Source: Geoalkalibacter ferrihydriticus DSM 17813 (GTDB lineage Bacteria > Desulfobacterota > Desulfuromonadia > Desulfuromonadales > Geoalkalibacteraceae). Taken from it: a DNA stretch of 64,000 nt. A program made the translations under genes and the position numbers. The notes below the pieces were generated by a model that did no database searches, was not told the DNA's origin, and saw nothing but the letters and a program-made list of their open reading frames with translations. The DNA lies in the NCBI RefSeq assembly GCF_000820505.1, contig NZ_JWJD01000001.1, forward strand, positions 1 to 64,000, in the 5' to 3' direction. This document shows positions 11,331-36,540 of the stretch, in pieces. Position 1 is the stretch's first letter. Each line of letters starts with the position of its first letter.

Positions 11331-11351
11331 GTGGGATAGAAAAGGACAGGA

Positions 11352-15199: not shown

Positions 15200-15200
15200 T

Positions 15201-17583: not shown

Positions 17584-17598
17584 AAAATTGCGCATTAC

Positions 17599-17636: not shown

Positions 17637-17700
17637 ATTCTATAGAGAGTGACATTTGAGTCTCAAGCTGTAAACTCTCTGAAAGCGAGGCTGCTAACAC

Positions 17701-17990: not shown

Positions 17991-18035
17991 TCGCGCGCGA
18001 TTGGAAAAATTGGTCCGTTAGGGCGAGGAAAAATT

Positions 18036-19286: not shown

Positions 19287-19732
19287 AAGCCCTTGTCCCA
19301 CACACGAGACGGTGGCTTGCTCGAAGGCCCGCATATTTTGTTGAAAAACCAGGTTGCAAAGCCCGCACCGCCGACCGCACCGCCTGCCGCCATATTTTCG
19401 AGCGCCAGACGGGCAAGGTGTATCTCTATCGATGCAATGGGGTGCGAAAGTTGAGCCATTAATATATATAATCGTAGATTAAATGAGGATGGCTTCGTTA
19501 TGAAAATTAAGATAATTCTTTCAGATGACCCTAAAAGCATGCGTGAGTGTCCTGACAATTTTGTGTGATTCTGTACTGTATTTCTGTACTGTATTCCTGA
19601 CAGACAGAAATGGATGAAAATGTTATTTGAATGCAAAAAGGGGACGCGATGCAAAGCAGGGTCATTAGTGGATGTCAAAAACAATAAGAGCATTTCGGCT
19701 GCGGCCAGACTGCGGCGACTAGGGAAGAAAAC
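19287..19732. other. Intergenic region upstream of the two-component pair
   Basis: Contains no convincing gene. It carries two tandem TTCTGTACTGTATT-like boxes (about 19569 and 19583), the second leading into the 23-bp repeat that recurs at 21665. These could be regulator-binding sites for the NarL-like protein encoded downstream. Confidence 0.4.
19585..19607 (+). repeat. 23-bp repeat flanking the NarX/NarL-like pair, copy 1
   Basis: TGTACTGT followed by three bases and then CCTGACAGACAG recurs at 21665-21687 in the same orientation. Only the three bases between the two blocks show any difference. The two copies bracket the kinase and regulator genes. Confidence 0.75.
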
Positions 19733-20884: not shown

Positions 20885-21529
20885 ATGCCGATAAGAATCC
20901 TACTTGCCGATGACCATGCAGTCGTACGGGAAGGCCTCCGGACGCTACTCGAAGCTCAGGGCGATATGAAAGTTGTCGGTGAAGCCGGAAACGGTCGCGA
21001 AGCGCTGAATAAAGCTGTATTGCTGAACCCGAATATTATCCTTATGGACATCGCGATGCCGGAAGTAAGTGGGATCGACGCGACGCGAATGATACTCTTG
21101 CAAGTACCTGCGGCCAAAATACTTGTTCTTTCCACGTATCATACCACTGAGTATGTAAGTCGCGCGATGCAGGCCGGGGCTCGGGCCTTTATCCACAAGG
21201 CATCGGCGGGATTCAGCGTTGTCAATGCGGTACGAGCGGTCATGAAAGGCCGTCTATATTTCAGTGATGAAATTGTTGCACCGAAATTAAAACGCACCGG
21301 GAGTCCGGTTTGCCCTAAAACGCCCCTGGAAAGCTTGAGCCGACGTGAACGCGAGACCTTACAGTTGGTCGTGGAAGGTAATACGAATGCAACGATTGCC
21401 GAAAAACTTAATGTCTCTCAAAAAAGTGTTGAAACCTATCGCAGCAGGCTTATGGTGAAACTTGACATCGATAACGTTCCCGCCCTGGTCATCTTCGCAC
21501 TTCAGCACGGCGTCATCTCCCTTCCATGA
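20885..21529 (+). CDS. NarL/FixJ-family response regulator
   Basis: The 214-residue protein has a REC domain (residues 1-120: LLADDHAVVREGL acidic pair, LMDIAMPEVSG phospho-Asp, LSTYH Thr/Ser, FIHKASA Lys) and a LuxR-type HTH (about 148-205: LSRRERETLQLVVEGNTNAT, IAEKLNVSQKSVETYRSRL). It binds DNA as a dimer upon phosphorylation by the kinase encoded immediately upstream. Candidate targets are the TGTACTGT-type repeats on either side of the pair, possibly including the che operon promoter region at 21530-21759. Confidence 0.93.
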   Translation: MPIRILLADDHAVVREGLRTLLEAQGDMKVVGEAGNGREALNKAVLLNPNIILMDIAMPEVSGIDATRMILLQVPAAKILVLSTYHTTEYVSRAMQAGARAFIHKASAGFSVVNAVRAVMKGRLYFSDEIVAPKLKRTGSPVCPKTPLESLSRRERETLQLVVEGNTNATIAEKLNVSQKSVETYRSRLMVKLDIDNVPALVIFALQHGVISLP

Positions 21530-21759: not shown

Positions 21760-23679
21760 ATGGCCCTGGTGAAAAAATCTAACGCCCAGTTTCAAGGCAC
21801 TTCCACCACTGAAGGTAAAACCTCTGCCGTTGCCGCCCGCGAGGCTGAGGCACAGCGCAAGAAGGCCCGCACCCTGGCCAAGCAGCAACAAGCTGCCGAG
21901 CGGATTGCCGCCGCCACGGGTCAGTTGTCCGCAGGGATCAATGAAGCAGCTTCCGCATCAGAAGAGTTAAAGCGCGCCTCCGACCAGATTGCAGCAGGCG
22001 CTGAAGAAGCTTCCGGCGCTGCCCAGGAATGCCTGGCCGCCTTCAAGCAAGTGGCGGTCGCCATTACCCGACAGTTGCAAAATGCAGAAGTAAGCCAGAC
22101 CAAGGCTGAGGGAACACAGCAACTGGTTGCCAGAACCAGCGGTGATATCAGCCTGATGGTGACCAATGTCGGCGTTGCTGCCCAGCGTCAGAACGCTTCG
22201 GTACAGTTGGTGGCGGAACTGGAAAAACAGGCTGCCAACATTGGCGAAATCATCAAAGCGGTGGTGCGCATTGCCGACCAGACCAACCTGCTGGCCTTAA
22301 ACGCCGCCATTGAAGCGGCGCGGGCCGGAAAACATGGCAAAGGCTTTGCCGTGGTGGCTGATGAAGTGAGAACCCTGGCCGAAACCTCCGAAAAAAGCGC
22401 CAAGCAGATCTCGGACCTGGTGGGACAGATCCAGCAGGAAGTACAAGTCATTGCTGAAGGGATCAGCAGTTCAGCCAAGAGTGTGGAAGGTGAGGTTGAA
22501 AACGGCAAGATCATTTCCCAGCAACTGGATCAGGTACGGCTTGACGCCCAGGAGATCGTTAAAGGCGTTGTGGAGATCGCCACGGGTGCAGCCCAATCCA
22601 GTGTTGCGGCAGAGCAGGCCCTGAAAGGTACCGAGGCCATTGCCGCAGCAGCAGAGGAACAATCAGCCGCATCGGAAGAGTCGTCCAAAACCGTTGACGA
22701 ACAGACCAAAGCTTTAGCTGAGTGTGAGCAAACCGCTAAGAGCCTCTCGGAGTTAACCGAAGACCTGAAAAATTCTACCGATGTGGCCAAAAGCGCCGAG
22801 GAAGTTGCCTCAGCCGCCGAAGAGCTTTCCTCTGCCGTGTCGGAAATCAACCGCTCCGGCACCCAGATCATGGTGGCCATTGAGCAGATTCGTAAGGGAG
22901 CCGAAGTCCAGTCCTCGGCCTCAGAAGAATCAGCCGCTGCCATCTCCCAGATCGAAAAGGGAGCAGAGATCGCTCAGAACCGCGCCACCAACGGCGTGGA
23001 AAAAATTGCGGCCATTAAAAACCTGCTGGACACCAACAAAACCTCCGTTGACTCACTGATAGCAGGTATTTCCGCATCCGCCGCCAGTTCACGGGACAGC
23101 ATCAGACAGATCAAGGAACTGGAACTGGTTGCCCGACGCATCGACAAGATCGTCGACGCCATCACCACTGTTTCCATCCAGACCAACATGCTGGCGGTAA
23201 ACGGCTCCATCGAAGCGGCCCGGGCCGGCGAATTTGGCAAGGGTTTTGTGGTGGTGGCCACCGATATCCGCAACCTGGCCCATGATTCCGCTGAAAATGC
23301 CGACCGGATCAAGGATCTGGTCAAGGCGGTGCAGGATCAGATCGGCATGGTAGGGCGCGACCTGGACGAGATTGTCGCCACCGCCAATGCTGAAGTGGAA
23401 AAGGCCAAATCCTCAACAGCCAACCTGATCCTGATTGAAGACGACATCGCCACGGTAGAAAGCGGTCAGAAAGAAATTCTGTCTGCCTCCACCGAGATCG
23501 CCGTTGCCATAGGCCAAGTGAAAAAAGGGATCGAGCAGATCGCCTCGGCCGCCCAGGAAGCCGACAAGGCAGCAACCGAGTCAGCCACAGCAGCCAAGCA
23601 GCAGTCCCAGGGTGCAGAAGAGTTGGCAGCTGCCATAGAAGAGATTGCTTCCCTTGCCGACGAACTGCAAAGCGCCTGA
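21760..23679 (+). CDS. Soluble chemoreceptor with two MCP signalling tips
   Basis: The 639-residue protein has no membrane segment or sensor domain and is almost wholly heptad-repeat helix. Two complete receptor hairpin tips are present: [20 protein letters not shown] (about residue 172) with [12 protein letters not shown], and [20 protein letters not shown] (about residue 473) with [15 protein letters not shown]. Each tip binds CheA and CheW in normal receptors, so one chain carries two signalling units, the second with diverged residues. Multiple A-A-E-E-S/Q motifs between them resemble methylation sites ([10 protein letters not shown]-type). AAGGAG precedes the ATG. It heads the operon. 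Cytoplasmic arrays are normally positioned by ParA-type proteins, and one is encoded downstream. Confidence 0.9.
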
Positions 23680-23694
23680 TAGGAGTGTGACAAC

Positions 23695-25263
23695 ATGACA
23701 ACAGTTAAGCTGGAAGAACCGGAAAATCGGGAACATACCGATAATGATGAAAGCGATGATACTCAGGACTCCGATACCCGTCAGTTTGTCACCTTCATTG
23801 CCGGAGATGAGGTCTTTGCTGTGGACATGACGCCGGTTCAGGAGATCATCCGGGTACCGGACGTGGTGCGGGTTCCGTTGGCCCCGCACACTCTGGAAGG
23901 ACTGGCCAATCTGCGTGGCAAGGTGCTGCCAATCATCTCCCTGCGCCGCATTTTCGGCTTCGATGAATGTGACTACAATGATTCAACCCGGGCCATCGTC
24001 ATTGATCTCGGCCAACCGCTAGGGTTTGTCGTTGACCGGGTCGCAAGTGTTGTTGGTGTGGAAACGGGCAAAATTGAAGGAGTGGAGTCCATCCGCAGTA
24101 CGGTGAACACCGAACTGCTCTCCGGGCTGATCAAGGATGTTGGCGGACACGCCATGATCATGGTGCTGGATTTTGCCAAACTGATCGCTCAAGAGTTTGC
24201 GGAGATAGCAGCTGTTTCCAAAAACTCGGACCTTTCCACGACCCGTTCGCAAACAACGGAAGCAGACGACGAGAAGAGCGACGACGAATTACAACTGGTC
24301 AGCTTTGAAGTGGCCGGTCAAGAATATGCCATGGCCATCGAAGATGTACAGGAGATCGTCCAGATTCCGGAAGAGATCATCCATGTGCCCCATGCAGAAT
24401 CCCATGTCATGGGGGTCATGACCCTGCGTAACCGGCTGTTGCCCCTGGTCAATCTGCGCCGCATGTTTGATTTGCCCAGCCGCGAAAACGACGACCATAG
24501 CCGTATTGTTGTGGTGTCATTGGGAGCATCGTCGGTTGGCGTCGTCATGGATAGCGTCAATGAAGTTTTAAGGGTGGCAAAGACAGATGTGGACGCCATG
24601 CCGGGTCTTTTGGCCCGTGATGGTGATCTTGCGGACATTACCGAGATCTGCCGTTTGAATAATGGCAAGCGCCTGGTGTCAATCATCTCGGCCAACAACC
24701 TGTTTCGGCATTCCGCTGTGAAGGAGGCCATGACAACCGTGGAAACGATGGATAACAACAAGAATCCGGGGCACGACCCGGATAACGATGAACTGACTTC
24801 TGACGATGATGAGCAGGTGGTTGTGTTTCGGCTGGGTAAGGAAGAGTTCGGGGTGCCGATCGACAGTGTCCAGGAAATTGTCCGGGTACCTGAAGAGCTG
24901 ACCCATGTGCCCAAAGCCCCCCCATTTGTGGAAGGGGTTATCAACCTTCGCGGTTCGGTGCTGCCGGTGATTGATCTGCGACGTCGCCTCGGCATGCCGG
25001 CGGTTGAACGTTCTGATAGGCAGCGTGTCATGGTGTTCCTGATTTCCGACATAAGAACCGGTTTTATCGTGGACCTGGTGGCCGAAGTACTCAAAATCCC
25101 CAAGAACGCCATTGAGCCGGCGCCGATGCTTTCCAGTGAACAGGCACGACTTGTGGCGCGCATGGCCAATCTTGAAAAACTGAAACGGATGGTTCAAATG
25201 ATTGAACCTTCTCACCTGATCGACAGCGGTGATATGGCGCAGTTGGCTCAATTGGGAGGGTAA
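23695..25263 (+). CDS. cheW: Triple-domain CheW adaptor
   Basis: Three CheW domains lie in tandem: about residues 28-170 (FVTFIAGDEVFAVDMTPVQE, IIRVPD, LANLRGKVLPIISLRR), 192-345 (LVSFEVAGQEYAMAIEDVQE, MTLRNRLLPLVNLRR) and 375-515 (VVFRLGKEEFGVPIDSVQE, INLRGSVLPVIDLRRRLG). They are joined by acidic linkers rich in D and E. Each carries the LRG/LRN-lP-i-LRR motif that contacts receptor and CheA, though the second has LRN instead of LRG. Normal CheW has one domain of about 160 residues. It follows the receptor gene by 15 bases with GGAGTG upstream. A trivalent adaptor could crosslink receptor arrays. Confidence 0.92.
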   Translation: MTTVKLEEPENREHTDNDESDDTQDSDTRQFVTFIAGDEVFAVDMTPVQEIIRVPDVVRVPLAPHTLEGLANLRGKVLPIISLRRIFGFDECDYNDSTRAIVIDLGQPLGFVVDRVASVVGVETGKIEGVESIRSTVNTELLSGLIKDVGGHAMIMVLDFAKLIAQEFAEIAAVSKNSDLSTTRSQTTEADDEKSDDELQLVSFEVAGQEYAMAIEDVQEIVQIPEEIIHVPHAESHVMGVMTLRNRLLPLVNLRRMFDLPSRENDDHSRIVVVSLGASSVGVVMDSVNEVLRVAKTDVDAMPGLLARDGDLADITEICRLNNGKRLVSIISANNLFRHSAVKEAMTTVETMDNNKNPGHDPDNDELTSDDDEQVVVFRLGKEEFGVPIDSVQEIVRVPEELTHVPKAPPFVEGVINLRGSVLPVIDLRRRLGMPAVERSDRQRVMVFLISDIRTGFIVDLVAEVLKIPKNAIEPAPMLSSEQARLVARMANLEKLKRMVQMIEPSHLIDSGDMAQLAQLGG

Positions 25264-25269
25264 CAATCT

Positions 25270-26337
25270 ATGATCAAACTTCTCATTGTTGACGATTCAG
25301 CCCTGATGCGACGTCTGTTGAATACGCTGTTCCAGGCTGAGGGCGATTTTACGATCCAGATAGCGCATAACGGCAAAGAGGCAGTGGCGCTGAATCGTGA
25401 CTTTATGCCCGATGTGGTGACCCTGGATATCAACATGCCGGAGATGGACGGCATTACCGCCCTGTCACTGATTATGGCGGAACGACCCGTGCCGGTGGTC
25501 ATGGTCTCGTCCCTCACGGAAAAGGGGGCCCTGGCAACCTTTGAAGCCCTGCATCTGGGAGCTGTTGATTATGTGACCAAGCCTGGAGGGACAATTTCAT
25601 TATCCCTTGAAGAGATCAGTAAAACGTTGATCAGCAAAGTGCGCGCAGCGGCCGGATCCAAGGTCAAAGGTAAGTCTTCGGCGAGGGGCCTAGCTCAGCG
25701 CTTGCGTGAAGAACGGGAAAAACCACCGACACGGCAACCGGTCATCCGACGTGGACCGGGTAACGAGGGGTTGGTGATCATCGGTGTTTCCACCGGTGGC
25801 CCCCGGACTCTTGAAGATGTTCTGCCTCTGTTGCCGGCGGACTTTCCCTGGCCGGTATTGGTGGCCCAGCATATGCCGTCTACATTTACCCGCCCTTTTG
25901 CCGACCGTATGAACGGTTTGTGTCCTCTTGCGGTTGTGGAAGCCAGCCAACCGATGCCTGTGGAGCCGGGAAAAATCTATATCGGCAAGGGCGGAGCGGA
26001 CATGGTGCTGGGAAACCGCAGCGGCACATTGACGGTATTAGCCAAACCGGAACACAAAGACTACATGTGGCACCCTTCGGTGGAACTTCTGGGGCGTTCC
26101 GCTCTTGAATGTTGCGATCCATCTCGTGTGGTCGGGGTGATGCTGACCGGCATGGGGCACGACGGCGCTGATGTTTTTGCCGAGATAAAAAAACGGGGTG
26201 GGCGCACCATTGCCGAATCAGAAGAATCGTCCGTGGTTTTCGGGATGCCTGCCGAACTGATCGCACGGGGCGGGGCAAGCATTGTATTACCTTCGGATAA
26301 GGTGGCGAGACAACTGATCACCTGGGCTGGACGGTAA
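25270..26337 (+). CDS. cheB: CheB protein-glutamate methylesterase
   Basis: Residues 1-120 form REC (LLIVDDSALMRRLL, VTLDINMPEMDG, MVSSLT, YVTKPGG). A linker rich in basic residues follows, and the methylesterase domain spans about 165-350. The catalytic triad is visible: Ser in GVSTGGPRTL, His in AQHMPSTFT and Asp in MLTGMGHDGADV. The enzyme removes methyl groups from receptor glutamates (and deamidates glutamines) when phosphorylated by CheA, giving adaptation. It begins six bases after the triple CheW gene. Confidence 0.95.
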   Translation: MIKLLIVDDSALMRRLLNTLFQAEGDFTIQIAHNGKEAVALNRDFMPDVVTLDINMPEMDGITALSLIMAERPVPVVMVSSLTEKGALATFEALHLGAVDYVTKPGGTISLSLEEISKTLISKVRAAAGSKVKGKSSARGLAQRLREEREKPPTRQPVIRRGPGNEGLVIIGVSTGGPRTLEDVLPLLPADFPWPVLVAQHMPSTFTRPFADRMNGLCPLAVVEASQPMPVEPGKIYIGKGGADMVLGNRSGTLTVLAKPEHKDYMWHPSVELLGRSALECCDPSRVVGVMLTGMGHDGADVFAEIKKRGGRTIAESEESSVVFGMPAELIARGGASIVLPSDKVARQLITWAGR

Positions 26338-26404
26338 GCTGGATGCAAATATCGATGATGCTTTTTAGATTTTGAATAGTATTTAAAATCACTAAAGGAA
26401 CAAA

Positions 26405-27028
26405 ATGGCATTCATTAAACAGCAATCGAGCCAAATAATAGAACAGAATGAGCGAAAACACGATCGTGACTGCGCCAATCTGGTACTACAGCTTTCCGAT
26501 CCCAGTCCAACAGCAAGGCGCTGGGCGGCGCGGGATCTGGCTGATTGTCCCGATTCTTCCGGCGCTCTTGTAGAACAATTACAGCGCGAACAGGACAGCT
26601 CGGTACGGGGAATAATCCTCACGACCCTTACACACTTGGGTGACGAGGAAGCTGTTTCAGGGCTGGTGAACTGTCTGCGCAGCGAAGACGCTTCGTTGCG
26701 CAACGAGGCGATTGAGGCTATGAAATTTTTACCTTCTGAAGTTGCGCCCATCATGGGCCAGCTACTCAAAGATCCGGACCCGGATGTGCGCATTTTTGCG
26801 GTCAATGTCCTTGAGTCACTGCGGCACGAACAGGTTGAGGAGTGGTTAAGAGAAGTTATTGAACATGACGCCCATGTCAATGTTTGTGCTTCAGCAGTAG
26901 ATCTGCTTGGTGAAGTCGGGTCCACATATTCATGGGAAGCCTTGGAAAATCTGAAAGTAAGGTTTCCAGACGAACCATTCATCAGCTTTGCGGCCGACCT
27001 GGCCCTGAAGCGCATCCGTAGCACCTGA
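26405..27028 (+). CDS. HEAT-repeat protein of the chemosensory operon
   Basis: The 207-residue protein is built of about five HEAT-like helical repeats: LVLQLSDPSPTARRWAARDL, LVEQLQREQDSSVRGIILTT, LVNCLRSEDASLRNEAIEAM, LLKDPDPDVRIFAVNVLESL and a last diverged one. There is no catalytic motif. HEAT proteins occur in several non-flagellar chemosensory operons, where they are thought to be scaffolds or coupling factors. ATG follows AAAGGAAC. It lies between cheB and cheR, with six bases to cheR. Confidence 0.85.
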   Translation: MAFIKQQSSQIIEQNERKHDRDCANLVLQLSDPSPTARRWAARDLADCPDSSGALVEQLQREQDSSVRGIILTTLTHLGDEEAVSGLVNCLRSEDASLRNEAIEAMKFLPSEVAPIMGQLLKDPDPDVRIFAVNVLESLRHEQVEEWLREVIEHDAHVNVCASAVDLLGEVGSTYSWEALENLKVRFPDEPFISFAADLALKRIRST

Positions 27029-27034
27029 CCCAAT

Positions 27035-27877
27035 ATGATTACGAAAACGATCAGTCAGGAAGAATTCTTGAAATTCAGGGAGTTCTTCTATCGTAAGACC
27101 GGCATCCAGTTTGAGGATTCAAAACGCTACTTCGTGGACAAGCGCCTGATCGAGCGAATCGAGGAAACGGATTCCGGCAATTTCCGCAATTATTTCATCA
27201 CCCTGCGCTTTGAGGCGACCGGTGAGGAGTTTCAGAAGCTGACCAACCTGATGACGGTCAACGAGACCTATTTTTTTCGGGAGGAATACCAGTTCAAGTG
27301 TCTGGTGAACTCCATACTTCCGGAGATAACGGCAATCAAGAAAAACAAAGGACCGGTTCGAATCTGGTCGGTACCCTCTTCGTCAGGGGAAGAGCCGTAC
27401 TCCATCGCCATGTATTTATTGGAATACTGGTCCGGCATCAACCAGTGGGATGTCGAGATCATCTCGTCTGATATCGATACCAGCATCATTGCTCAGGCGC
27501 GTCGCGGATATTTTTCAGACCGTTCGGTAAAGACGCTTCCAAAGAAGCTGCTTGAAAAATATTTCCGTCACAGTGGTGACGGGTTTCAAATAAGCGAGGA
27601 CTTAAGGCAGTCAGTTGAATTCACCAAGGTCAATCTGATGAAACCGTCCGATGTGCGCGGTTACCGGGGTTTTGATGTGATCTTCTGCCGCAATCTGTTG
27701 ATCTATTTTGATGATCTGTCACGTCGTCAGGCAGCTGATACTTTCTTCGACGCCTTAGCTCCTGGTGGTTTTCTCTGTCTTGGACATTCGGAATCCATGA
27801 GCCGTATTTCTTCGCTGTATCAGGTCCGCAAATTTTCTGATGCAGTGGTGTACCAAAAACCCATGGAGGTTCAATGA
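27035..27877 (+). CDS. cheR: CheR protein-glutamate methyltransferase
   Basis: The 280-residue protein has an N-terminal helical domain (FREFFYRKTGIQFEDSKRY) followed by the SAM-binding fold. Motifs are TVNETYFFREEYQF, IWSVPSSSGEEPYSIAM (SAM-binding, usually WSAACSTGEEPYSIA; here VPSS replaces AACS), IISSDIDTSII, VEFTKVNLM, FDVIFCRNLLIYF and LCLGHSESMS. It methylates receptor glutamates using SAM. The SAM motif is a mild variant, but the GEEPYS core is kept. The end overlaps the next cheY by four bases. Confidence 0.93.
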   Translation: MITKTISQEEFLKFREFFYRKTGIQFEDSKRYFVDKRLIERIEETDSGNFRNYFITLRFEATGEEFQKLTNLMTVNETYFFREEYQFKCLVNSILPEITAIKKNKGPVRIWSVPSSSGEEPYSIAMYLLEYWSGINQWDVEIISSDIDTSIIAQARRGYFSDRSVKTLPKKLLEKYFRHSGDGFQISEDLRQSVEFTKVNLMKPSDVRGYRGFDVIFCRNLLIYFDDLSRRQAADTFFDALAPGGFLCLGHSESMSRISSLYQVRKFSDAVVYQKPMEVQ

Positions 27878-28245
27878 AACGGATCCTTATCGTTGATGAC
27901 GCTGCTACGATGCGTATGTATTACCGCAGTATTCTTGAAGGATCCGGCTATCAGGTCCATGAAGCGGTAAATGGTATCGAAGCGATGGAGAAGTTTCTAC
28001 AAGAGCCCTTTGACCTGTGCATCGTTGACGTCAACATGCCAAAGCAGGACGGATACAGTTTTTTAAGCGAACTGCGCAGCAGAGATATTTCCCAAGCTCC
28101 GGCACTGATGATCTCTACTGAAGCTGCTGCCAGTGACAGAACACGCGCCTATGCAGCGGGAGCGAATCTCTATCTGGTTAAACCGGTCAAGCCGGATGAG
28201 TTGCTGACCAATTGCCGCCTGTTGCTCGGGGAGGCTAAGCCGTGA
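27874..28245 (+). CDS. cheY: CheY-like single-domain response regulator
   Basis: The 123-residue REC domain has ILIVDDAATMRMYY, CIVDVNMPKQDGYS (phospho-Asp), MISTEA (Thr) and LVKPVKPDEL (Lys-Pro). The ATG overlaps the cheR stop (ATGA) and its own stop overlaps the cheA GTG. The position between cheR and cheA suggests that it receives phosphate directly from this CheA. No flagellar motor genes are present, so the target may be non-flagellar. Confidence 0.93.
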   Translation: MKRILIVDDAATMRMYYRSILEGSGYQVHEAVNGIEAMEKFLQEPFDLCIVDVNMPKQDGYSFLSELRSRDISQAPALMISTEAAASDRTRAYAAGANLYLVKPVKPDELLTNCRLLLGEAKP

Positions 28246-30881
28246 ACCCATTGCTTGAACAATTTATTTCCGAGTCTCGCGAGTCGCTGCAGGGTATCGC
28301 CGAAAAACTGATGCAGCTGGAGAAAGAGCCGAAGAGCAATGTTCTGATGACGGAACTATTCCGCTTTGTCCACACTCTGAAAGGGAACAGCGGCCTCTTC
28401 GACCTGCCTGAATTGACTCGGGTACTGCATGCTGGTGAAGATCTGATGGATGCCGTACGCAACGGCAAGGTGGCCTATTCGCCCAACCTGGCTGACCGGT
28501 TACTCGATGCCATGGACTTTGTCGGTGTGCTCTGCGACGAAATTGAAACCCAAGGTAACACAGATGTCAAACATGTCAAAAATTCCGTCCATCTGGCGGA
28601 GGGCTTGCGTCAGCTGATTGTTGTTAAAATGGTACACGCCGAGGGCGTCAGCGGCACAGTGGCCGAGGTGGTTCCGATTCTGCCCGGAGATGACACTTCT
28701 TCAATCCAGTTGCCGCTGGCAGATCTCCCGGAAGAGACCCGGATGAGAGCATACCGGGCTTCCGTCACAGGTGAACCCCTTTATTGGATTGCCTACAGTC
28801 CGGTTGAAGAGTGTTTTTTCCAGGGCGACGACCCATTTTACCAGGCTCGCCAGACACCGGGAATCCTCTGGGGAGGGATAACGGCACGCACTTCCTGGCC
28901 AACACTTGCCGAGTTGGATCCCTATTGCTGCGTGCTTGATTTCAGCATTCTCAGTAAGGCGCCGTTAGAGGATCTTCAAGAGCATTACCGCTATGTGCCG
29001 GATCAAGTCCAAATCACTCCGGTACCCAGTCAATATTTGATCCTGCCTCATGGTGACCCCAATGGCGGTCCAGTGTATGAAGATTTCGTTGCCGATGCTC
29101 TTGGGCTGTTACAGACCGGTAATTTGGAGGGTTTGATTCGCGCCTCCCGCAGCATGCTGGAGTTGTCGAACCCGGATCTATGGCTTTCTGCCGCTCTACG
29201 CTGGTTGCTGCTGGTGACCGAACTTGAGCCGGACAACGCTGTTGTTTCGCAACAAATAATTATCTCACTGCGTACCCTGACGCCGACTGCGTGGCACGAA
29301 CTGGCACGAGCTGGCGATGGTACATCTGTTCCTGCACCAATCACCAACAGAAAACCGCAAGCTCCGAAATCTGAACCGACTCAACTCAGTCCGGAAGTGA
29401 AAGCAATCATCGTCGCTCAACGTGAAATACTATCAATGCCGGACAATGTCACCTGGGTGGCAGGGCGGATCAAATCTGTAGCAGCCTCTTTGTCCGCGTG
29501 CCTGCAAGCAATAGGTTGGGATGAAATCCTGCCAGGATTGGAAGCTGAGCTGCAAACGGCTCTCGCTCAGGGTTCTTCGGCTCCTCTCTTACTCTGGTTG
29601 AATAGTCAGTTTAAACATGAGCTCCCGGCAGGCAAGTCAGCTGACATCGAACAGCAAACTGACCCTGACATTAAATATGGACGACGTTCGGATGATGCCT
29701 TTGTCGGGCCAAAAAGCATCAAGGTTGATCAGACCAAGATCGATCGTCTTATGAGCCTGATTGGCGAAATGGTGGTAGCAAAGAACGCCTTGCCGTATCT
29801 GGCTGGACGTGCTGAGACCGTATTTGGGGTGCGGGATCTTTCCCGCGAGATCAAGTCTCAGTATGCAGTCATCAATCGCATCGCCGAGGAAATGCAGGAC
29901 TCCATCATGCAGGTACGCATGATGCCGGTTTCTTTTGTGTTTCAGCGTTTTCCCCGTCTGGTTCGGGATACGGCCAACAAGCTGGGAAAAGAAGTCAACC
30001 TGATCCTTGAAGGTGAGGAGACTGAAGCCGACAAGAATGTTATTGAATCTCTTGGTGATCCCCTGATGCACATCGTCAGGAACAGTCTGGATCATGGCAT
30101 CGAAATGCCGGAAATGCGCCGATCACTCGGCAAGCCTGCTGCAGGCACCATCCTTATCCGTGCTACCCAGGAAGCGGGCCGGGTAGATATTGAAATACGT
30201 GACGATGGCAAGGGTATTGATCCGGACGTCATCAAGCGAATGGCGTATGAAAAAGGGATTATTGACAGTGAACAGTTGGAACGGATTTCAGATCAAGATG
30301 CGGTAAACCTGGTTTTTGCCGCCGGATTTTCAACGGCTGAGGCTGTTTCCGATCTCTCCGGTCGTGGCGTCGGGATGGACGTGGTCAGGACCGCGATCGA
30401 GAAAGTTAACGGCACCATCAACCTGGAGAGTGAAAAGGGGAAAGGAACACGAATCCGCCTTTCCTTACCGCTTTCCATGGCGGTCACCAACGTCATGATC
30501 GTTGAATCAAATAATCAGATTTTTGGCGTTCCGATGGGAATTGTTGTTGAAACGGTGCGGATATCGAAGGCTGATATTCGAACGATTAAGAAGACTCAGG
30601 CGACGGTACTGCGTGGCCGAATTATACCGCTCAAATCACTTAACTTGTTACTAGGGCAGCATGTTCCTCCCAAGGCCAACGATGAGGATGAACTCGCCGT
30701 ATTGATCGTTAGTCTGGGAGGTGAATCTGTCGGAATTTTTGTCGATGACTTCCGTGAAACGGTGGACATCATTCTCAAACCTATGACGGGTGTATTGGCC
30801 GGGATAACAGCTTACAGCGGCTCCGCTTTACTGGGAGACGGTTCAGTGCTGATGGTGCTGGATATGAAGGAGATAATCTGA
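28242..30881 (+). CDS. cheA: CheA chemosensory histidine kinase with an unusual middle region
   Basis: Start is GTG 28242, overlapping the cheY stop. The protein has 879 residues. HPt (P1) occupies about 1-110, with the phospho-His at H44 in FVHTLKGNSG. A long region (about 130-470) lacks a classical P2 domain but contains conserved-looking blocks such as WIAYSPVEECFFQGDDPFYQ and GILWG. Then come dimerisation P3 (KIDRLMSLIGEMVVAKNALP), catalytic P4 (HIVRNSLDHGIE N box, RDDGKGID G1, GRGVGMDVVR G2) and CheW-like P5 (MIVESNNQIFGVPMG, RGRIIPLKSLNLLLG). All kinase motifs are intact. The middle region is the non-standard part and may bind the partner regulators. Confidence 0.94.
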   Translation: MNPLLEQFISESRESLQGIAEKLMQLEKEPKSNVLMTELFRFVHTLKGNSGLFDLPELTRVLHAGEDLMDAVRNGKVAYSPNLADRLLDAMDFVGVLCDEIETQGNTDVKHVKNSVHLAEGLRQLIVVKMVHAEGVSGTVAEVVPILPGDDTSSIQLPLADLPEETRMRAYRASVTGEPLYWIAYSPVEECFFQGDDPFYQARQTPGILWGGITARTSWPTLAELDPYCCVLDFSILSKAPLEDLQEHYRYVPDQVQITPVPSQYLILPHGDPNGGPVYEDFVADALGLLQTGNLEGLIRASRSMLELSNPDLWLSAALRWLLLVTELEPDNAVVSQQIIISLRTLTPTAWHELARAGDGTSVPAPITNRKPQAPKSEPTQLSPEVKAIIVAQREILSMPDNVTWVAGRIKSVAASLSACLQAIGWDEILPGLEAELQTALAQGSSAPLLLWLNSQFKHELPAGKSADIEQQTDPDIKYGRRSDDAFVGPKSIKVDQTKIDRLMSLIGEMVVAKNALPYLAGRAETVFGVRDLSREIKSQYAVINRIAEEMQDSIMQVRMMPVSFVFQRFPRLVRDTANKLGKEVNLILEGEETEADKNVIESLGDPLMHIVRNSLDHGIEMPEMRRSLGKPAAGTILIRATQEAGRVDIEIRDDGKGIDPDVIKRMAYEKGIIDSEQLERISDQDAVNLVFAAGFSTAEAVSDLSGRGVGMDVVRTAIEKVNGTINLESEKGKGTRIRLSLPLSMAVTNVMIVESNNQIFGVPMGIVVETVRISKADIRTIKKTQATVLRGRIIPLKSLNLLLGQHVPPKANDEDELAVLIVSLGGESVGIFVDDFRETVDIILKPMTGVLAGITAYSGSALLGDGSVLMVLDMKEII

Positions 30882-31120
30882 TGCCGATAACGTTCAAGAA
30901 AGACCGTGCGATTTTCAGTGAAGTCGCCGGAGGAGACGATGCGGAGAGCCTTCTGGAATGGCTGCAAAAGTACCCGAAGGGGAAAATCGACCTTAGCGCA
31001 TGCACTCACCTGCAACCAGCGAATCTGCAGGTGCTGATGGCTGCAAAATGTTCCATTGTAGCCAGACCGAAGGACGAGCATCTGGCCGCGTGGATAAATA
31101 CCGCACTGAAAACAAACTAG
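30881..31120 (+). CDS. Small STAS-like protein of the chemosensory operon
   Basis: The 79-residue product starts one base inside the cheA stop (TGATG). The sequence (MPITFKKDRAIFSEVAGGDD, AESLLEWLQKYPKGKIDLSA and HLQPANLQVLMAAKC) fits a short beta-alpha fold. The IDLSAC-thLq-aNLQVL segment resembles the STAS core 'iDlsgv..iDsaglqlLlaa'. The phosphorylatable Ser of anti-sigma antagonists is not evident. STAS-like proteins of this size accompany some alternative-function chemosensory clusters; their role is unresolved. Confidence 0.65.
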   Translation: MPITFKKDRAIFSEVAGGDDAESLLEWLQKYPKGKIDLSACTHLQPANLQVLMAAKCSIVARPKDEHLAAWINTALKTN

Positions 31121-31131
31121 GGAGCGACAGC

Positions 31132-31506
31132 ATGGCAAAGACCATTATGGTGGTTGATGATTCGGCAACAATGAGGTTGAGCCTCAAGTCAGGCCTGGAA
31201 TTGAGCGGATTTAAGGTTGAATGCGCGGGTGATGGCGTTCTGGCCCTGAATCAACTCAGGGGCGGCGTCAAGCCCGATCTGATTATTACCGATATTAACA
31301 TGCCAAATATGGGCGGACTGGAGTTCATCAAGAACCTCCGCACCCTTCCCGGGTTTCGTTTTATTCCGGTGTTGGCGCTCACAACCGAGAGTCAACAGGA
31401 GAAGAAGAATGAGGCAAAAAAATTCGGAGCAACCGGCTGGCTGGTAAAACCTGTGACCGGTCCTGATTTGGTCAAGGTCATCAGACAGGTCCTGCCAGGA
31501 GCATAA
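31132..31506 (+). CDS. cheY: CheY-like response regulator, second copy
   Basis: The start at 31132 follows AGGGAGCG. The 124-residue REC domain contains IMVVDDSATMRLSL, LIITDINMPNMGGLEFIK (phospho-Asp), LALTTES (Thr) and WLVKPVTGPDL (Lys). It is closer to standard CheY than the first one. Two single-domain REC proteins in one operon allow a phosphate sink or a second output. Three bases separate it from the membrane receptor gene. Confidence 0.94.
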   Translation: MAKTIMVVDDSATMRLSLKSGLELSGFKVECAGDGVLALNQLRGGVKPDLIITDINMPNMGGLEFIKNLRTLPGFRFIPVLALTTESQQEKKNEAKKFGATGWLVKPVTGPDLVKVIRQVLPGA

Positions 31507-31509
31507 TCC

Positions 31510-32787
31510 ATGAAAATAGACACAAACCTTCCCGGCAAGATTTTAGATTTCCCTACGGGACTTTTGAGAATGTTCGCGACCTTGCTGTGCGGCATGACAA
31601 TTGTTTCCGTATGTGCCTATTTTGTGCATCCCTGGGTTATCAGATTGAGTCCGTTGTCAAATGCATTTGATGTCGCGCTTACTGGAGCGCTGGCATCTAT
31701 TGCGACATTTACGCTGGTTGCACTTATATACAGAAAAAAACTTACGATCATCAATCAAGATACTCATTGTAAACACAACCACTGTTCGGCTCAGCATCTT
31801 CTTATTAGAGAGAACTATATCCAGACCGTCTCAGATCTCAGCCAATATAATGCTGTGCTTGGAGGTCAATTAAGGGAAACGATCGGCCAGACCGAAACGG
31901 CGGTGATGGGAGTGGTTGGAAGGATGGTGATTATTCATGAACACAGCAGTTCTCAGGTTGACCGGATCGGTTCATCTTCCCAAAAAAGCAGTGAATTGAT
32001 AACGGTTACTCAGGAACAGGTCCGTAAAAATCAACAAGTTATTCAAGCATTAAATACCTTCTCTGATAGTCAGACTGATCAATTAAGAGATAATCTTTTT
32101 CGAATTCAAAAGTTGTCAGATGAGATGGAGTTGATGCAACCGATGGTGAAAGAAATTGCGAAAATTGCCGATAACACCAATCTCTTGGCGATTAACGCGT
32201 CAGTTGAAGCTGCCCGGGCCGGAAATGCAGGCAAGGGTTTCGCGGTCGTGGCCAATGAAGTGCGCAGGCTCTCTAATCAGTCCAACAAAGTGGCGAAAGA
32301 GATTGCCGAAAGAATCACTCGTGTGACCGGACAGGCACAGATTGAGACCGAAAATGCCAGGCGGTCAATTGCCAATAATGAAGATTCACAAAAATTTACA
32401 GCTCTGGCAGGCAATTTGTCTGACATTGAAGGACGATTTAAAAACGCATCGGTTCACCTTGAAGAAATGATCAAAGGTATTGATGAAGCCAACCGGTTAA
32501 TCGTCGAAGAGGTGTCGATTGTGTTGGGCGAAATACAGTTTCAGGATGTTCTTCGACAACGTTTGGAGAATGTCAACAATGGCCTTGAATGTCAGAGTGA
32601 ATTTGCCGGGCAGACTCGGCTATGGCTGGAAGGGAATGCAGAATTTCCCGCCAAAAGATTGAATGATCATCTCACCGAGTTGAAGAGTAGGTATGTCATG
32701 CAGGAACAGCAGACAACCCACAATGCGATTTTGGGGGGACAAGCAGATGCGGAGTGCGGCTCCAATCAAAAAATCGAGCTTTTCTGA
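31510..32787 (+). CDS. Membrane-bound methyl-accepting chemotaxis protein
   Basis: The 425-residue protein has two hydrophobic helices near the N-terminus (about residues 18-40 [19 protein letters not shown] and 52-75 [20 protein letters not shown]) with almost no periplasmic loop. A cytoplasmic signalling domain follows (about 200-330) with [20 protein letters not shown] and [19 protein letters not shown], an intact tip. No HAMP or ligand domain is seen, so it may sense membrane or cytoplasmic state. A CxxHxHC-like cluster ([11 protein letters not shown], about residue 85-95) just after the second helix could bind metal. The end overlaps the ParA-like gene by one base. Confidence 0.88.
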
Positions 32788-33590
32788 TGAATGGGCCAGC
32801 CGAAATTATCGTCGTGACCAACCGGAAAGGCGGCACCGGGAAAACAACGACATCGGTTAATCTTGCAGCGGAATTCGCGGCACAAGGCCAACCCGTATTG
32901 TTGATTGATATGGACACCCAGGGACATTGTGCGGTAGGCGTCGATGTTACCAAACCAAAGGATTCACCAACCGTTCACAACTTGTTCCTATCGGATGATT
33001 TCCTTCTTGCCGAGGCTGTGTGTCCGACCGCCTGGCCCAATCTTCATCTCATTCCCGCCAATCCGTTATTTGAACACGGTTCCGGTGATGGAGATCAGAC
33101 ACGCCTTGCCAGGGCCCTGCACGATGAAGGACTGACGAAACAGTATGATCTGATCATCATAGACACCCCTCCGTCGTTTGACGGCCTCCTGATGAACGCC
33201 CTCTGTGCAGCCAGAAGCGTATTGATCCCTTTCGTGCCCCACCATCTGTCCGGAGAAGGGATCCGCAATCTGGCCCGGATCCTTTTCAGGGTAGCATCAG
33301 GACCGAATCCTGATCTGAAACTGCTGGGCCTTCTTCCGATCATGCTTGACCGGCGTATTGGTCAACACCGAAACGTCACGGATGGGGCAGCCCTTCAGTT
33401 CGGGCAGGGAAGAATGCTTTCCGGAATCCGCACCGATATCAAGCTGGCTGAATCCTTTGCTCATCGTCAACCAGTTCGTTCCTATATGCCTAATTGCAGA
33501 GGCACCGAAGATTATGCCATGGTAGCCCGTGAAATTGGTGAACGGTTGAAATCGCGTTACGAACTCCACTCAACTAAGCAAACTACGTGA
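32787..33590 (+). CDS. ParA/Soj-like ATPase of the chemosensory operon
   Basis: The ATG overlaps the receptor stop (TGATG). The 267-residue protein has a deviant Walker A with both lysines (VTNRKGGTGKTTTSVNLA), switch I/Walker A' (LIDMDTQGHCAVG), Walker B (IIIDTPPSFDGLL) and a C-terminal helix. It is a chromosome-partition-type ATPase without an N-terminal HTH. Within che operons such proteins (ParC, PpfA) place and segregate chemosensory arrays, PpfA for cytoplasmic clusters. This fits the soluble receptor at the operon's head. The four-base overlap with the next gene indicates translational coupling. Confidence 0.9.
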   Translation: MNGPAEIIVVTNRKGGTGKTTTSVNLAAEFAAQGQPVLLIDMDTQGHCAVGVDVTKPKDSPTVHNLFLSDDFLLAEAVCPTAWPNLHLIPANPLFEHGSGDGDQTRLARALHDEGLTKQYDLIIIDTPPSFDGLLMNALCAARSVLIPFVPHHLSGEGIRNLARILFRVASGPNPDLKLLGLLPIMLDRRIGQHRNVTDGAALQFGQGRMLSGIRTDIKLAESFAHRQPVRSYMPNCRGTEDYAMVAREIGERLKSRYELHSTKQTT

Positions 33591-34735
33591 GCTCCTGTAT
33601 GAATACTTTAGCCGAGTTCGTACCTGAAACACAAAATGCACGGATTGTTATTGTGGACGATGATCCGGACTGTCTTAATTTTTTAAAACTTAGGTTGTTG
33701 GACTGCGGACACGAAGTTTTTTCGTTCACCAATGGTGCGGATGCTCTGGATGCTGTTGTCAGGGAACCGATCGATATTATTCTGCTGGATATCTCCATGC
33801 CGGAAGTGGATGGTATCCCGGTGTGTGATAGGATCAAACAAAATCCCAAACTCAACGGTATACCCGTCATTTTTTTGAGCGGCCAGGGCACCCCCGAAAA
33901 CATAATGCGCGGATTCCGTTCCGGTGGGGTGGACTTCATCACGAAACCGTTTCAACTTGAAGAGGTGCTGGCCAGGGTCAGCGCTCACATCAGTCGGGGA
34001 CGGGCAGAGGCACTGCTTCGGCAGAAGAATGATTTTCTTGAACGGATCGTCTTGGAACGTACCACCGAATTGCAAAAAGACATTGAAGAACGCCAACGTG
34101 TTGAGGCGATCCTCGCTCAGCAGATCAGGGATAATGGGGAGGCGTTCAGCTACACAATCTATGCTCTTGCAAGGGCGGCAGAAGCGAATGACGAAGACAC
34201 CGGTAACCACGTACTCAGGGTTGGAGAATTCTCCGCAATCATTGCGTCTCAGCTTGGGCTTGACGACACCTTTGTTCAAGACATACATCTCCAGGCAATA
34301 CTGCACGACGTAGGGAAAATACATTCTCATCCGGATATATTTAAAAAACCCGGAAAATTAACGGATGAGGAGTTCACGAAAATGAAGGAACATACGTATT
34401 CCGGAACAATGATTATCGGCACCAACGAAAAGCTGAGAGTCGGGCGCAATATTGCACTCACGCACCATGAAAAATGGGATGGCAGCGGCTATCCCCGCGG
34501 ACTTGTCGGCGAGCAGATACCGATTGAGGGGAGAATTACGGCTATTGCTGATATCTACGACGCACTCAGGAGCGCACGCTCTTACAAGGCACCATTTGAC
34601 CATGTTACAGCTTACAAGATCATTACGGAAGGAGACGGCCGGACCATGCCTGAACATTTTGATCCTGCGGTCTTGCAAGCCTTCAGGGAAACCGGTGACC
34701 AGTTCGAGGAAACATACGAAAGATTAAAAGGATAA
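33587..34735 (+). CDS. REC-HD-GYP response regulator (c-di-GMP phosphodiesterase)
   Basis: The first start is GTG 33587, overlapping the ParA stop; an ATG 12 bases later is also possible. The product of about 382 residues has REC (IVIVDDDPDCLNFL, IILLDISMPEVDG, FITKPFQ), a coiled coil (about 140-180) and an HD-GYP domain. The latter shows EDTGNHVLRVGEFS, AILHDVGKIHSHPDIF, MKEHTYSGTMI, LTHHEKWDGSGYPRGL and AIADIYDALRSARSYK. Metal-binding His/Asp residues and the GYP loop are intact. It should hydrolyse c-di-GMP to GMP or pGpG under CheA control, making c-di-GMP a likely output of the array. Confidence 0.93.
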   Translation: MSSCMNTLAEFVPETQNARIVIVDDDPDCLNFLKLRLLDCGHEVFSFTNGADALDAVVREPIDIILLDISMPEVDGIPVCDRIKQNPKLNGIPVIFLSGQGTPENIMRGFRSGGVDFITKPFQLEEVLARVSAHISRGRAEALLRQKNDFLERIVLERTTELQKDIEERQRVEAILAQQIRDNGEAFSYTIYALARAAEANDEDTGNHVLRVGEFSAIIASQLGLDDTFVQDIHLQAILHDVGKIHSHPDIFKKPGKLTDEEFTKMKEHTYSGTMIIGTNEKLRVGRNIALTHHEKWDGSGYPRGLVGEQIPIEGRITAIADIYDALRSARSYKAPFDHVTAYKIITEGDGRTMPEHFDPAVLQAFRETGDQFEETYERLKG

Positions 34736-34781
34736 GGCAAAATAGTTAGCTTAATAACATATGTAGAGAGAGGTAGAATTT

Positions 34782-35180
34782 ATGAAGTGTTTAATAGTTG
34801 AAGATGATCATCCTTCTAGCCTGATAATGGGGAAAATGATATCCAGATACGGCTCCTTTGATGCCGTTGTTAACGGCACTGAGGCGATTGAGCGGTTCCG
34901 GATTGCCCATGAGTCCGGCAGCCCCTATGACCTGATTTTAATGGACATAATGATGCCTGAAACCGATGGCTTGCGGTCCGCGCTGGCGATCAGGGAAATT
35001 GAAGCACACAGAAACATCTCTTTGACGGACAGGGTAAAGGTCATCATGACGACTGCACTGGATGACCCTCGCACGGTCATGAAAGCATTATACGAGTCAG
35101 ATGCCAATTCGTATCTTGTCAAACCTATCAGATTGCAGAAACTTGAGGATGAATTGCGGGCGCTAAATCTTATTTCTTAA
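34782..35180 (+). CDS. Stand-alone REC-domain response regulator
   Basis: The 132-residue protein has CLIVEDDHPSSLIM (acidic pair), LILMDIMMPETDGLRSA (phospho-Asp), VIMTTALDDPR (Thr) and YLVKPIRLQKLED (Lys). The long insert around SPYDL/EIEAHRNIS is typical of REC proteins linked to PilZ or HD-GYP outputs. AGAGAGG precedes the ATG. It follows the HD-GYP gene by 46 bases, so it is the last gene of the che operon or a sub-operon with the haem-oxygenase-like gene. Confidence 0.9.
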   Translation: MKCLIVEDDHPSSLIMGKMISRYGSFDAVVNGTEAIERFRIAHESGSPYDLILMDIMMPETDGLRSALAIREIEAHRNISLTDRVKVIMTTALDDPRTVMKALYESDANSYLVKPIRLQKLEDELRALNLIS

Positions 35181-35259: not shown

Positions 35260-36540
35260 ATGGAGTATAAGCCTCAAAATTTGATGGACCGTCTAAAACA
35301 TGAGACGCAACTGCTACACACCCGGCTGGAAAATCTACCATTTTTTGCGGCCCTCGCTAATGGAACCCTACCGCTTGCCTCATACATGAATCAACTCCGA
35401 GCATTCGCAACAGCATTCGGTACACTCGAGCATGCAAAAACATCCTTACAGGAGCCGGCCATTCGTGCACTGCTTGAAGTCGGAGAGAGTCGGTTCACGC
35501 ATCTTCTGCGCGACCTTGGTTGTTTTGGCGATAAGATGATTCCGGAAATCATCGGCGTAAAGTGCCATGCTGATGCCATGGCAGCCAGAATACGGCTTCT
35601 GGGTTTAGAAGACCCAGTAGCCTTGCTGGGTTATGTGTATGTCCTGCAAGGTACCACACTGGGCAACCGGGTTCACCTTCCGGACATACAACGAATATGC
35701 ACTGTAGAAAAGACAGGTGGAGATGAGTTTTATACAGGATATGGCGATCGAACCGATGAATTTTGGCATGTCTTTGCCAGTCTCATGAACAGTTTTGGCT
35801 GGGGGGATGAAACAAACGAACGGATTCTCACCGCAGCCCGTGAGGCATTCTGTTTTCTGGAAGACATCCACACCGCTCTCTTTCCGTTGCCTGAAGCCGA
35901 CAGCATGATGTTTTCTGCTACCAGCATAAATCCGGAAGCAGGAAACCATGCCGTGCCATCTGATAAACGAGAACTGGTGGCGGCACTAACGGCAGGACGT
36001 TTATGCCGCGAGGAATTCCCCTATTTTGAAGCACGATATGGTGATCGCGGGAATCGTTTCACTGATAGTGATGCCGCCTGGCTGGCAACACTTGCACAAC
36101 TCACCCCTCCACTCATAATCTCTCAAACTGCCTGGCTCGGAGGCGTTCTTGCCAGTCGGGGCATGCCACGCATCACCTTGGAGCGCCAGCTTATCTACCT
36201 TTATGAAGAATTGGTAAAGGCTGTTCCTGACAAACAGTCTGACTATAGCCGGCTCATGGAAGCGGTACTGTGGCTTAAAAATGAACGTCTCAGGCACATC
36301 TCCGCAGAAACGTTCGACACTTTATGTCATGCCTTTGCTGCGATGACGGATGGTGAATCAGGCGGAAGAATGAAAGGAACGGGTTTAATCATCGTTTCGG
36401 CTGTCAGCGATGAAAAAGCCGGAATAGCCGCAGCTGTTGCAAGTGTCGAGTCGTGGCTGACAGATGTTGAACGTTTCAGCGCGAAATGGTGTACGGCGGT
36501 GCGAGAGACAATTGCCCAGGCTCGATCAGTTGCGGTTTAG
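35260..36540 (+). CDS. Haem-oxygenase-like protein with an unidentified C-terminal domain
   Basis: The first ~200 residues match the biliverdin-producing haem oxygenase (BphO-like) fold: LKHETQLLHTRLENLPFF with candidate proximal ligand H20, and LLGYVYVLQGTTLGNRV, corresponding to the distal helix Gly-rich segment (usually YVLEGSTLGG). The remaining ~200 residues (YFEARYGDRGNRFT, WLGGVLASRGMPRITLERQL, IYLYEELVKAVPDKQ) are helical and I cannot name their family. The fold's two functions could be haem cleavage to biliverdin, CO and iron, or haem/tetrapyrrole binding for sensing. It follows the chemosensory operon by 79 bases and may provide a redox/light/CO signal. No phytochrome gene is in the window. 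Confidence 0.72.
   Translation: MEYKPQNLMDRLKHETQLLHTRLENLPFFAALANGTLPLASYMNQLRAFATAFGTLEHAKTSLQEPAIRALLEVGESRFTHLLRDLGCFGDKMIPEIIGVKCHADAMAARIRLLGLEDPVALLGYVYVLQGTTLGNRVHLPDIQRICTVEKTGGDEFYTGYGDRTDEFWHVFASLMNSFGWGDETNERILTAAREAFCFLEDIHTALFPLPEADSMMFSATSINPEAGNHAVPSDKRELVAALTAGRLCREEFPYFEARYGDRGNRFTDSDAAWLATLAQLTPPLIISQTAWLGGVLASRGMPRITLERQLIYLYEELVKAVPDKQSDYSRLMEAVLWLKNERLRHISAETFDTLCHAFAAMTDGESGGRMKGTGLIIVSAVSDEKAGIAAAVASVESWLTDVERFSAKWCTAVRETIAQARSVAV

Follow-up and report, generated by a model that had tools for sequence, protein, structure and literature searches.

An operon of chemosensory class F9 in Geoalkalibacter ferrihydriticus with a membrane receptor that may work like CheZ and a lineage-specific REC-HD-GYP tail

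Introduction

The first 64,000 nucleotides of contig NZ_JWJD01000001.1 of Geoalkalibacter ferrihydriticus DSM 17813 (assembly GCF_000820505.1), which as a whole are called the window here, contain 13 open reading frames (ORFs), all on the plus strand (window positions 21760-35180), that form a chemosensory operon. The question that this locus raises is whether its parts, among them a soluble receptor with two signalling tips, a triple CheW, a STAS-like protein, a ParA-type ATPase and a receiver protein with an HD-GYP domain, make up a new kind of signalling system, and what this system acts on. Overall, the operon belongs to a class that is already known, and its tail is lineage-specific. The unexpected part is a CheZ-like signature in the F9 membrane receptor, which is undescribed in the literature that we searched; this is a weak negative, as subscription papers were mostly outside the scope of that search. 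The 13 genes are:

21760-23679, plus strand: DosM, soluble two-tip receptor (two MCPsignal stretches by Pfam, no transmembrane window)
23695-25263, plus strand: CheW3, three CheW domains per chain (PF01584, 3 stretches, E 4e-97)
25270-26337, plus strand: CheB methylesterase with receiver (PF01339, PF00072)
26405-27028, plus strand: HEAT-repeat protein (PF13646, HEAT_2, E 1.3e-24)
27035-27877, plus strand: CheR methyltransferase (PF01739)
27874-28245, plus strand: CheYa, first stand-alone receiver (PF00072)
28242-30881, plus strand: CheA, F9-type (Pfam Hpt, H-kinase_dim, HATPase_c, CheW)
30881-31120, plus strand: STAS-fold protein, CheS-like by position (predicted fold; Pfam below cut-off)
31132-31506, plus strand: CheYb, second receiver (PF00072)
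31510-32787, plus strand: membrane receptor, single signalling tip (PF00015; two hydrophobic segments)
32787-33590, plus strand: ParA-type ATPase, KGGTGKT Walker motif (PF13614, AAA_31, E 2.9e-36)
33587-34735, plus strand: REC-HD-GYP, predicted phospho-regulated phosphodiesterase of cyclic diguanylate (c-di-GMP) (PF00072, PF13487, HD_5)
34782-35180, plus strand: stand-alone receiver (REC), last gene (PF00072)

According to these coordinates, gaps of 15, 6, 67 and 6 bases separate the genes from DosM to CheR. CheR and CheYa as well as CheYa and CheA overlap by 4 bases and CheA and the STAS gene by 1, followed by gaps of 11 bases before CheYb and 3 before the receptor. The receptor overlaps ParA by 1 base (ParA starts with ATG at 32787) and ParA overlaps REC-HD-GYP by 4 (GTG at 33587), while 46 bases lie between REC-HD-GYP and the last REC. 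The gene list, the order and the junction lengths given in an earlier account of this DNA (the original prediction) are thereby borne out by ORF coordinates, Pfam domains and start codons.

Class assignment and conservation

DosM and CheW3 have been called unique to the chemosensory class F9 (PMC9321776). Since both signature genes, the tandem two-tip DosM and the triple-domain CheW3, are present in the window, the operon is almost certainly a class F9 system. The statement of the original prediction that no cluster with all these parts had been described therefore does not hold, and cluster I of Vibrio cholerae has been named with the same elements, including the transmembrane receptor VC1394 (PMC7534058). 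The comparison of the gene order with the chemosensory classes, which the original prediction had suggested, leads to F9, in which HEAT, STAS and ParA genes are routine, and this speaks against that prediction. The "F" in the class label alone does not mean a flagellar output. Complete F9 systems have been reported for 64 of 2781 species (PMC9321776), and imaging of the F9 array in V. cholerae has shown a lattice in the cytoplasm whose baseplates are 35 nm apart (PMC7184735).

Related loci were collected with CheA as query in one genome per species (84,980 species, 26 loci), and further loci by a search of the phylum with the CheA middle region, which was found in at least 8 of 395 genomes, including that of the window, with up to four candidates scored per genome. 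After L040 had been dropped (it has neither DosM nor CheW3, and its CheA match is confined to residues 492-875), 32 loci were counted; the divergent L061 was kept apart, and L044 (genome G200), of which 4 kb were read, was dropped as well. Loci cut by contig ends (L015, L018, L019, L021, L026, L039) were left out for the genes concerned. The block DosM-CheW3-CheB-HEAT-CheR-CheY-CheA-STAS-CheY-membrane receptor is nearly invariant across the 32 loci, and the gene order is far from chance because it recurs in all these places. DosM and CheW3 are each found in 29 of 29 evaluable F9 loci (as two frames for DosM in L028 and for CheW3 in L023 and L062), CheB, HEAT and CheR each in 30 of 30, STAS in 31 of 31, CheYb in 29 of 29 and the membrane receptor in 28 of 29.

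In a CheA tree that covered the DosM-CheW3 loci and the CheAs of this genome, the window CheA stands with those of the other DosM-CheW3 loci, separate from the genome's remaining five CheAs, with long branches. No such CheA was found in five other genomes of the window's family, in line with the reported sporadic distribution of F9.

A CheZ-like motif in the membrane receptor

As judged from hydrophobic windows, the membrane receptor has two transmembrane segments that are joined by a short loop, and a periplasmic domain is missing. Two elements beyond its signalling tip are of special interest:

32539-32559, plus strand: FQDVLRQ, residues 344-350 of the receptor, counterpart of CheZ FQDLTGQ
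32770-32784, plus strand: KIELF, C-terminus of the receptor, candidate peptide for the docking of CheY (the end of CheZ is SLGF)

D346 and Q350 correspond to D143 and Q147 in the CheZ of E. coli, and F(Y)QDxxxQ has been described as the hallmark of CheZ (PMC7750401). In an alignment of 30 receptors (A3; the window, 28 F9 loci and L061), the residues Q135, D136, R139, Q140 and the final L214 and F215 are invariant beyond the tip. All 30 receptors thus carry QDxxRQ, and the DxxxQ pair of CheZ is present in its (F/Y)Q context: in 31 receptors, including a second receptor of the window's genome on contig C11, the residue before Q is F in 25, Y in 4, S in 1 and L in 1. The end is conserved as -[IMLF][EQ]LF (with one extra residue in L064), compared to -SLGF in CheZ.

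The two features also go together within the genome. Among 18 of its 19 frames for methyl-accepting chemotaxis proteins (MCPs; L092 was left out, and the C-terminus is cut or ambiguous in L079, L084 and L085), QDxxxQ occurs beyond the tip in two, and exactly the same two end in -IELF. The second one (425 residues, FQDMATQ, -IELF end) belongs to a cluster on contig C11 (63.3-67.5 kb in genome G000; L123, 2290-6513) with the order MCP-CheY-STAS-CheA and then CheW, which is the F9 four-gene module reversed. In L061 the order is CheA, STAS-like gene, CheY, MCP. The genes for CheA, STAS, CheY and MCP thus stay together in clusters whose remaining parts differ.

L061 (genome G098, 2166-19888, minus strand) is a che cluster of hybrid make-up. 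It contains an F9-like CheA, a STAS-like gene, a CheY and an -IELF receptor, but its CheR and CheB are of another type, and CheD, a REC-HD-GYP, an EAL-HDOD gene and several histidine kinases are present as well. No F9-type DosM or CheW3 was detected in the stretch read.

Profile searches give a graded picture. A CheZ profile scores above 5 bits with 18 of the 30 receptors versus 1 of 11 other MCPs (Fisher p 0.005), 0 of 30 DosM sequences and 1 of 150 shuffles, and all 18 come from lineages outside the clade of the window. Below threshold, CheZ is the best or only match for the receptor ends of L038, L061 and L065; together with L128 and L066, for which it is listed too, this makes five of the eight ends searched. 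In the whole genome of the window, no protein reaches the cut-off of the CheZ profile; the best match is the receptor on C11 (E 0.003). A PDB search with profile A3 yielded MCPs and coiled coils, with no CheZ among the 60 of 122 matches listed, and a tblastn search of plasmids with the Polaromonas receptor (L022) gave nothing at E <= 1e-20.

Several observations weigh against a CheZ-like function. None of the eight receptor ends reaches the cut-off of the Pfam CheZ family (PF04344; best 17.5 versus 30.7 bits), and the sub-threshold search found no CheZ match for the receptors of the window, L022 and L033. With the CheZ profile, all eight receptors of the window clade (window, L015, L017, L023, L026, L027, L031, L033) fail to exceed 5 bits. 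The profile-profile comparison of receptor and CheZ aligns FQD...Q with FQD...Q at E 0.0046, with a probability of as little as 7.6%, and the T and G of CheZ DLTGQ are not kept in the receptors. Locus L024 lacks the membrane receptor yet keeps CheYb. Moreover, the receptor keeps a normal signalling tip, and therefore it may simply signal. By profile scores, membership in the CheZ family is not supported. Because the Pfam, profile and profile-profile matches are weak, we propose that the membrane receptor may work like CheZ and do not claim that it is one; for the window's own receptor, the case is made by its motif, which is invariant, by its C-terminal end and by the neighboring genes instead of profile scores. 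We give a phosphatase step by the receptor an even chance.

The strongest alternative is an ordinary F9 system with a true membrane receptor, in which QDxxRQ and -IELF serve for tethering of CheR or CheB or for non-catalytic docking of CheYb. This would agree with the intact tip and the missing CheZ profile score of the window's receptor, and chemoreceptors are known to carry C-terminal pentapeptides that tether CheR and CheB (PMC7390727). However, both motifs persist in L061, where the CheR is distantly related (143 bits versus at least 361 for complete F9 CheRs). They are also present in the C11 cluster, and the neighbours shared are CheA, STAS and CheY, which argues against this alternative. 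The receptor also has no periplasmic sensor. We regard this alternative as a serious possibility that falls somewhat short of even.

CheA, the STAS protein and the two CheYs

CheYb adjoins the membrane receptor in all 28 F9 loci that possess the latter (L021 and L035 have a second CheYb copy beside it). The small protein encoded between CheA and CheYb (79 residues) scores 14.7 bits with STAS_2, compared to a Pfam cut-off of 29.2. Its AlphaFold2 model, calculated from a 24-sequence alignment, has a mean predicted local distance difference test value (pLDDT) of 85. In Foldseek, four RsbV chains come out on top (probability 1.00, TM-score 0.62-0.69, E 0.002-0.004), followed mainly by other STAS proteins, with no match reaching E 0.001. 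Fold and position together identify it as a STAS-only protein encoded beside cheA, as is typical of CheS. C41 and H43 are invariant across the 24 sequences. Other STAS proteins carry a phosphorylated serine near this position.

In Sinorhizobium, CheS, which consists of STAS only, binds CheA and helps it to tell two CheYs apart, and the DxxxQ protein CheT enhances the dephosphorylation of only one CheY (PMC12654446). By analogy, the window operon has candidates for the same roles: a STAS protein, two CheYs and one DxxxQ protein.

The middle region of CheA, comprising about 400 residues, has no Pfam match at E <= 0.001 and is conserved in an alignment of 14 sequences. It has no match to a solved fold at E <= 0.001 either, which counts against the mechanism favored below. 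A P2-like domain is not claimed here, as the P2-CheY complex of T. maritima appeared only at rank 40 (E 0.77).

DosM and the ParA-type ATPase

DosM has no transmembrane window, so that the soluble array receptor of the original prediction is retained, and so is its ParA gene (PF13614, Walker motif in the alignment). In the window DosM the EAARAG signalling tips, at residues 185 and 485, are separated by 300 residues, and this spacing is kept exactly in 29 of 30 DosM sequences (in L062 the second tip is not matched by the pattern). At a helix rise of 0.15 nm per residue, 300 residues would correspond to about 45 nm between the two tips. This would fit the baseplate distance of 35 nm, provided that the tips extend past the baseplates.

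The nearest solved chain to the window ParA by sequence is a ParA family protein (8ray). The gene encodes a KGGxGKT motif and lies in a che operon without ParB (no ParB family was detected by Pfam among the 16 proteins scanned, 19.7-36.5 kb), as is typical of the PpfA/ParC type. An intact ParA gene follows the block in 19 of the 29 F9 loci that can be evaluated; nine loci lack it and in one (L017) it is decayed, which is a further point against the mechanism favored below. One of the ParA-less loci, L067, keeps a 45-bit ParA fragment. In the seven genomes of the nine ParA-less loci no other comparable ParA was found (best 62-125 bits, whereas the ParAs beside F9 receptors in other genomes of that search score 257-475 bits). 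The apparently decayed ParA of L017 (14503-14964), from a Desulfobulbus metagenome-assembled genome, is a broken match with four in-frame stops.

A candidate contact for ParA is found at the very start of DosM:

21760-21777, plus strand: MALVKK, N-terminal peptide of DosM before a variable linker

This pattern is present in 15 of 16 ParA-bearing loci versus 2 of 9 ParA-less ones (p 0.0005; p 0.017 with close relatives collapsed), where L028, for which no start was found, L017 with its decayed ParA, and L018, L019 and L039 (ParA state unknown) were additionally left out. A strict tie between MALVKK and ParA is rejected, as the peptide is kept in the ParA-less L031 and L063 and in L017, and the association is a lead only because the pattern was defined after inspection. 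A precedent is TlpT of R. sphaeroides, a receptor whose N-terminus contacts PpfA (PMC5706961). Alternatively, the MALVKK end might bind the nucleoid directly instead of ParA, in analogy to FrzCD, where a basic receptor tail does so (PMC5716589).

The REC-HD-GYP tail and the output of the system

The HD-GYP protein named in the original prediction is confirmed, with the HDxGK and HHExxDGxGYP motifs intact, and it aligns to the HD-domain hydrolase 4mcw. That prediction had the array control c-di-GMP turnover rather than a flagellum. In the corresponding alternative, CheA would phosphorylate the REC-HD-GYP and thereby set c-di-GMP as the main output, independent of flagella. The position of the gene fits this, as it overlaps ParA by 4 bases, and orthologs lie in the operons of L015 (76% identical) and L033 (62% identical). 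The genome has 25 GGDEF matches. Furthermore, L061, from a genome of the same taxonomic class as the window's, has another REC-HD-GYP directly upstream of its F9-like CheA and the EAL-HDOD gene nearby, and in L016 a REC-HD-GYP lies 3.8 kb beyond the receptor.

However, L015 and L033 are the only two of 29 other evaluable F9 loci with an HD-GYP gene in the operon; in the other 27 it is not part of the operon, and the loci inspected have histidine kinases, a different receiver or unrelated genes in this place. An HD-GYP protein as a feature of class F9 is thus rejected. The window, L015 and L033 are among seven CheAs of one clade, and close relatives of the last REC (63-77% identical) were found only in L015 and L027 among the loci searched. 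What follows the receptor or ParA varies: a receiver and a large receiver-bearing protein in L027, kinase-like proteins in L031 and a receiver in L023. REC-HD-GYP-like proteins are also common, with matches at E <= 1e-60 in at least 103 of 395 genomes (up to four candidates scored per genome), and FliM in the window's genome makes an output at the motor conceivable. Because the REC-HD-GYP is confined to few loci and the downstream genes vary, a c-di-GMP output would be lineage-specific and not class-wide: it is plausible in the lineage of the window and is not a property of class F9. As the main output of the system, we consider it possible but less likely than not. We found no paper that describes an HD-GYP gene in an F9 operon, the gene orders in the supplementary tables of PMC9321776 being outside that search.

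In L023 (15434-16583), the receiver after ParA is followed by another ORF. We take its product to resemble a phosphatase of the PP2C/SpoIIE type, which would be of interest beside a STAS protein.

The cluster could also control the biosynthesis or rotation of a flagellum, like other F classes. An F9 member has been reported to control flagellum biosynthesis in Rhodospirillum centenum (PMC7184735), 97% of the F9 species are reported to have a complete flagellar gene set (PMC9321776), and FliM is encoded in the genome of the window. But deletion of the F9 cheA of V. cholerae has been described as being without a detectable phenotype under standard conditions (PMC7534058), and five other CheAs are available in the window's genome. 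A flagellar role therefore seems unlikely.

Proposed mechanism

The gene content, the class signature, the conserved order, the invariant motifs and the predicted STAS fold are results of the analysis. From them we infer each enzymatic, binding and positioning step of the mechanism that we favor. DosM, CheW3 and CheA would assemble into a cytoplasmic receptor lattice of two layers, in which DosM, with a signalling tip at each end, would be a ruler of fixed length. CheA would phosphorylate the two CheYs and possibly also the receiver of the REC-HD-GYP. Like the CheS of Sinorhizobium, the STAS protein might bind CheA and sort phosphate between the two CheYs. The membrane receptor would be a CheZ-like phosphatase, or a receptor doubling as a phosphatase, which binds CheYb through its C-terminal -IELF and removes the phosphate via D346 and Q350. 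ParA could place the lattice on the nucleoid, perhaps via the N-terminal MALVKK of DosM, and in the window's lineage the REC-HD-GYP might add the breakdown of c-di-GMP as an output. The kinase would thus sit in a cytoplasmic lattice and the phosphatase in the membrane.

The chances of this mechanism as a whole, that is F9 with a CheZ-like receptor, a CheS-like STAS protein and placement by ParA, appear to us evenly balanced. More tentative, and in our view possible but below even, is the wider proposal that F9 systems and the C11 cluster use an MCP turned CheY phosphatase, with membrane anchorage, a CheZ-like site and a CheY-docking tail, together with a cytoplasmic kinase lattice placed on the nucleoid by ParA, a phospho-CheYb gradient between this lattice and the membrane, a CheS-like STAS protein and, in the window's lineage, an HD-GYP protein that reads the signal into c-di-GMP.

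If the receptor works in this way, the switch-off of the F9 pathway would be explained without a recognizable CheZ, and there would be a job for a receptor without a periplasmic sensor, with concrete point mutations on offer. Not even for V. cholerae, whose F9 arrays have been imaged, is the function of these arrays known. The HD-GYP-bearing loci would represent a version of F9 whose output might be measurable as c-di-GMP.

Comparison with known systems

The closest relative by description is cluster I of V. cholerae (DosM VC1403, CheW3 VC1402, CheA VC1397, receptor VC1394), which has the same two-tip receptor, triple CheW, CheA and transmembrane receptor (PMC7534058, PMC7184735). Its double-layered cytoplasmic lattice has been observed, whereas that of the window is predicted from genes. 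The window block continues with ParA, REC-HD-GYP and a further REC; of these, ParA is not claimed as a difference.

The operon CheOp3 of R. sphaeroides (PpfA, TlpT; cytoplasmic cluster) likewise encodes a ParA-type protein together with a soluble receptor, again by description, and PpfA homologs have been reported in the che operons of 77 of 206 species (PMC2829493). Unlike for the window, no two-tip receptor or CheW3 is named in the available part of its description.

The CheS/CheT set of Sinorhizobium, as described, shares with the window a small STAS-only protein with CheA and two CheYs. However, its DxxxQ motif lies in a separate protein, CheT, that is complexed with CheR, while that of the window lies in the membrane receptor (PMC12654446).

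CheZ itself (PF04344) resembles the receptor in the FQDxxxQ of a helical protein, in a hydrophobic end with a last F and in the position of its gene beside cheY (E. coli). Unlike CheZ, the window receptor has a profile score below the cut-off, lacks the TG of the motif and possesses transmembrane segments and a signalling tip.

Neighboring genes

The operon is flanked by the following genes:

19733-21529, plus strand: PAS histidine kinase and LuxR-type regulator, upstream of DosM
35260-36540: heme oxygenase-domain protein, downstream, starting 79 bases after the operon

The heme oxygenase-domain protein has 426 residues, of which residues 7-200 make up the domain, and gave no tblastn match above 45 bits in the related loci. 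Scans of the locus for promoters and terminators revealed nothing above shuffles. The PAS kinase and the LuxR-type regulator may be regulators of operon expression. A similar pair is found upstream of DosM in L027 (44% and 55% identical), and weaker kinase/regulator pairs are present in L016, L019 and L035.

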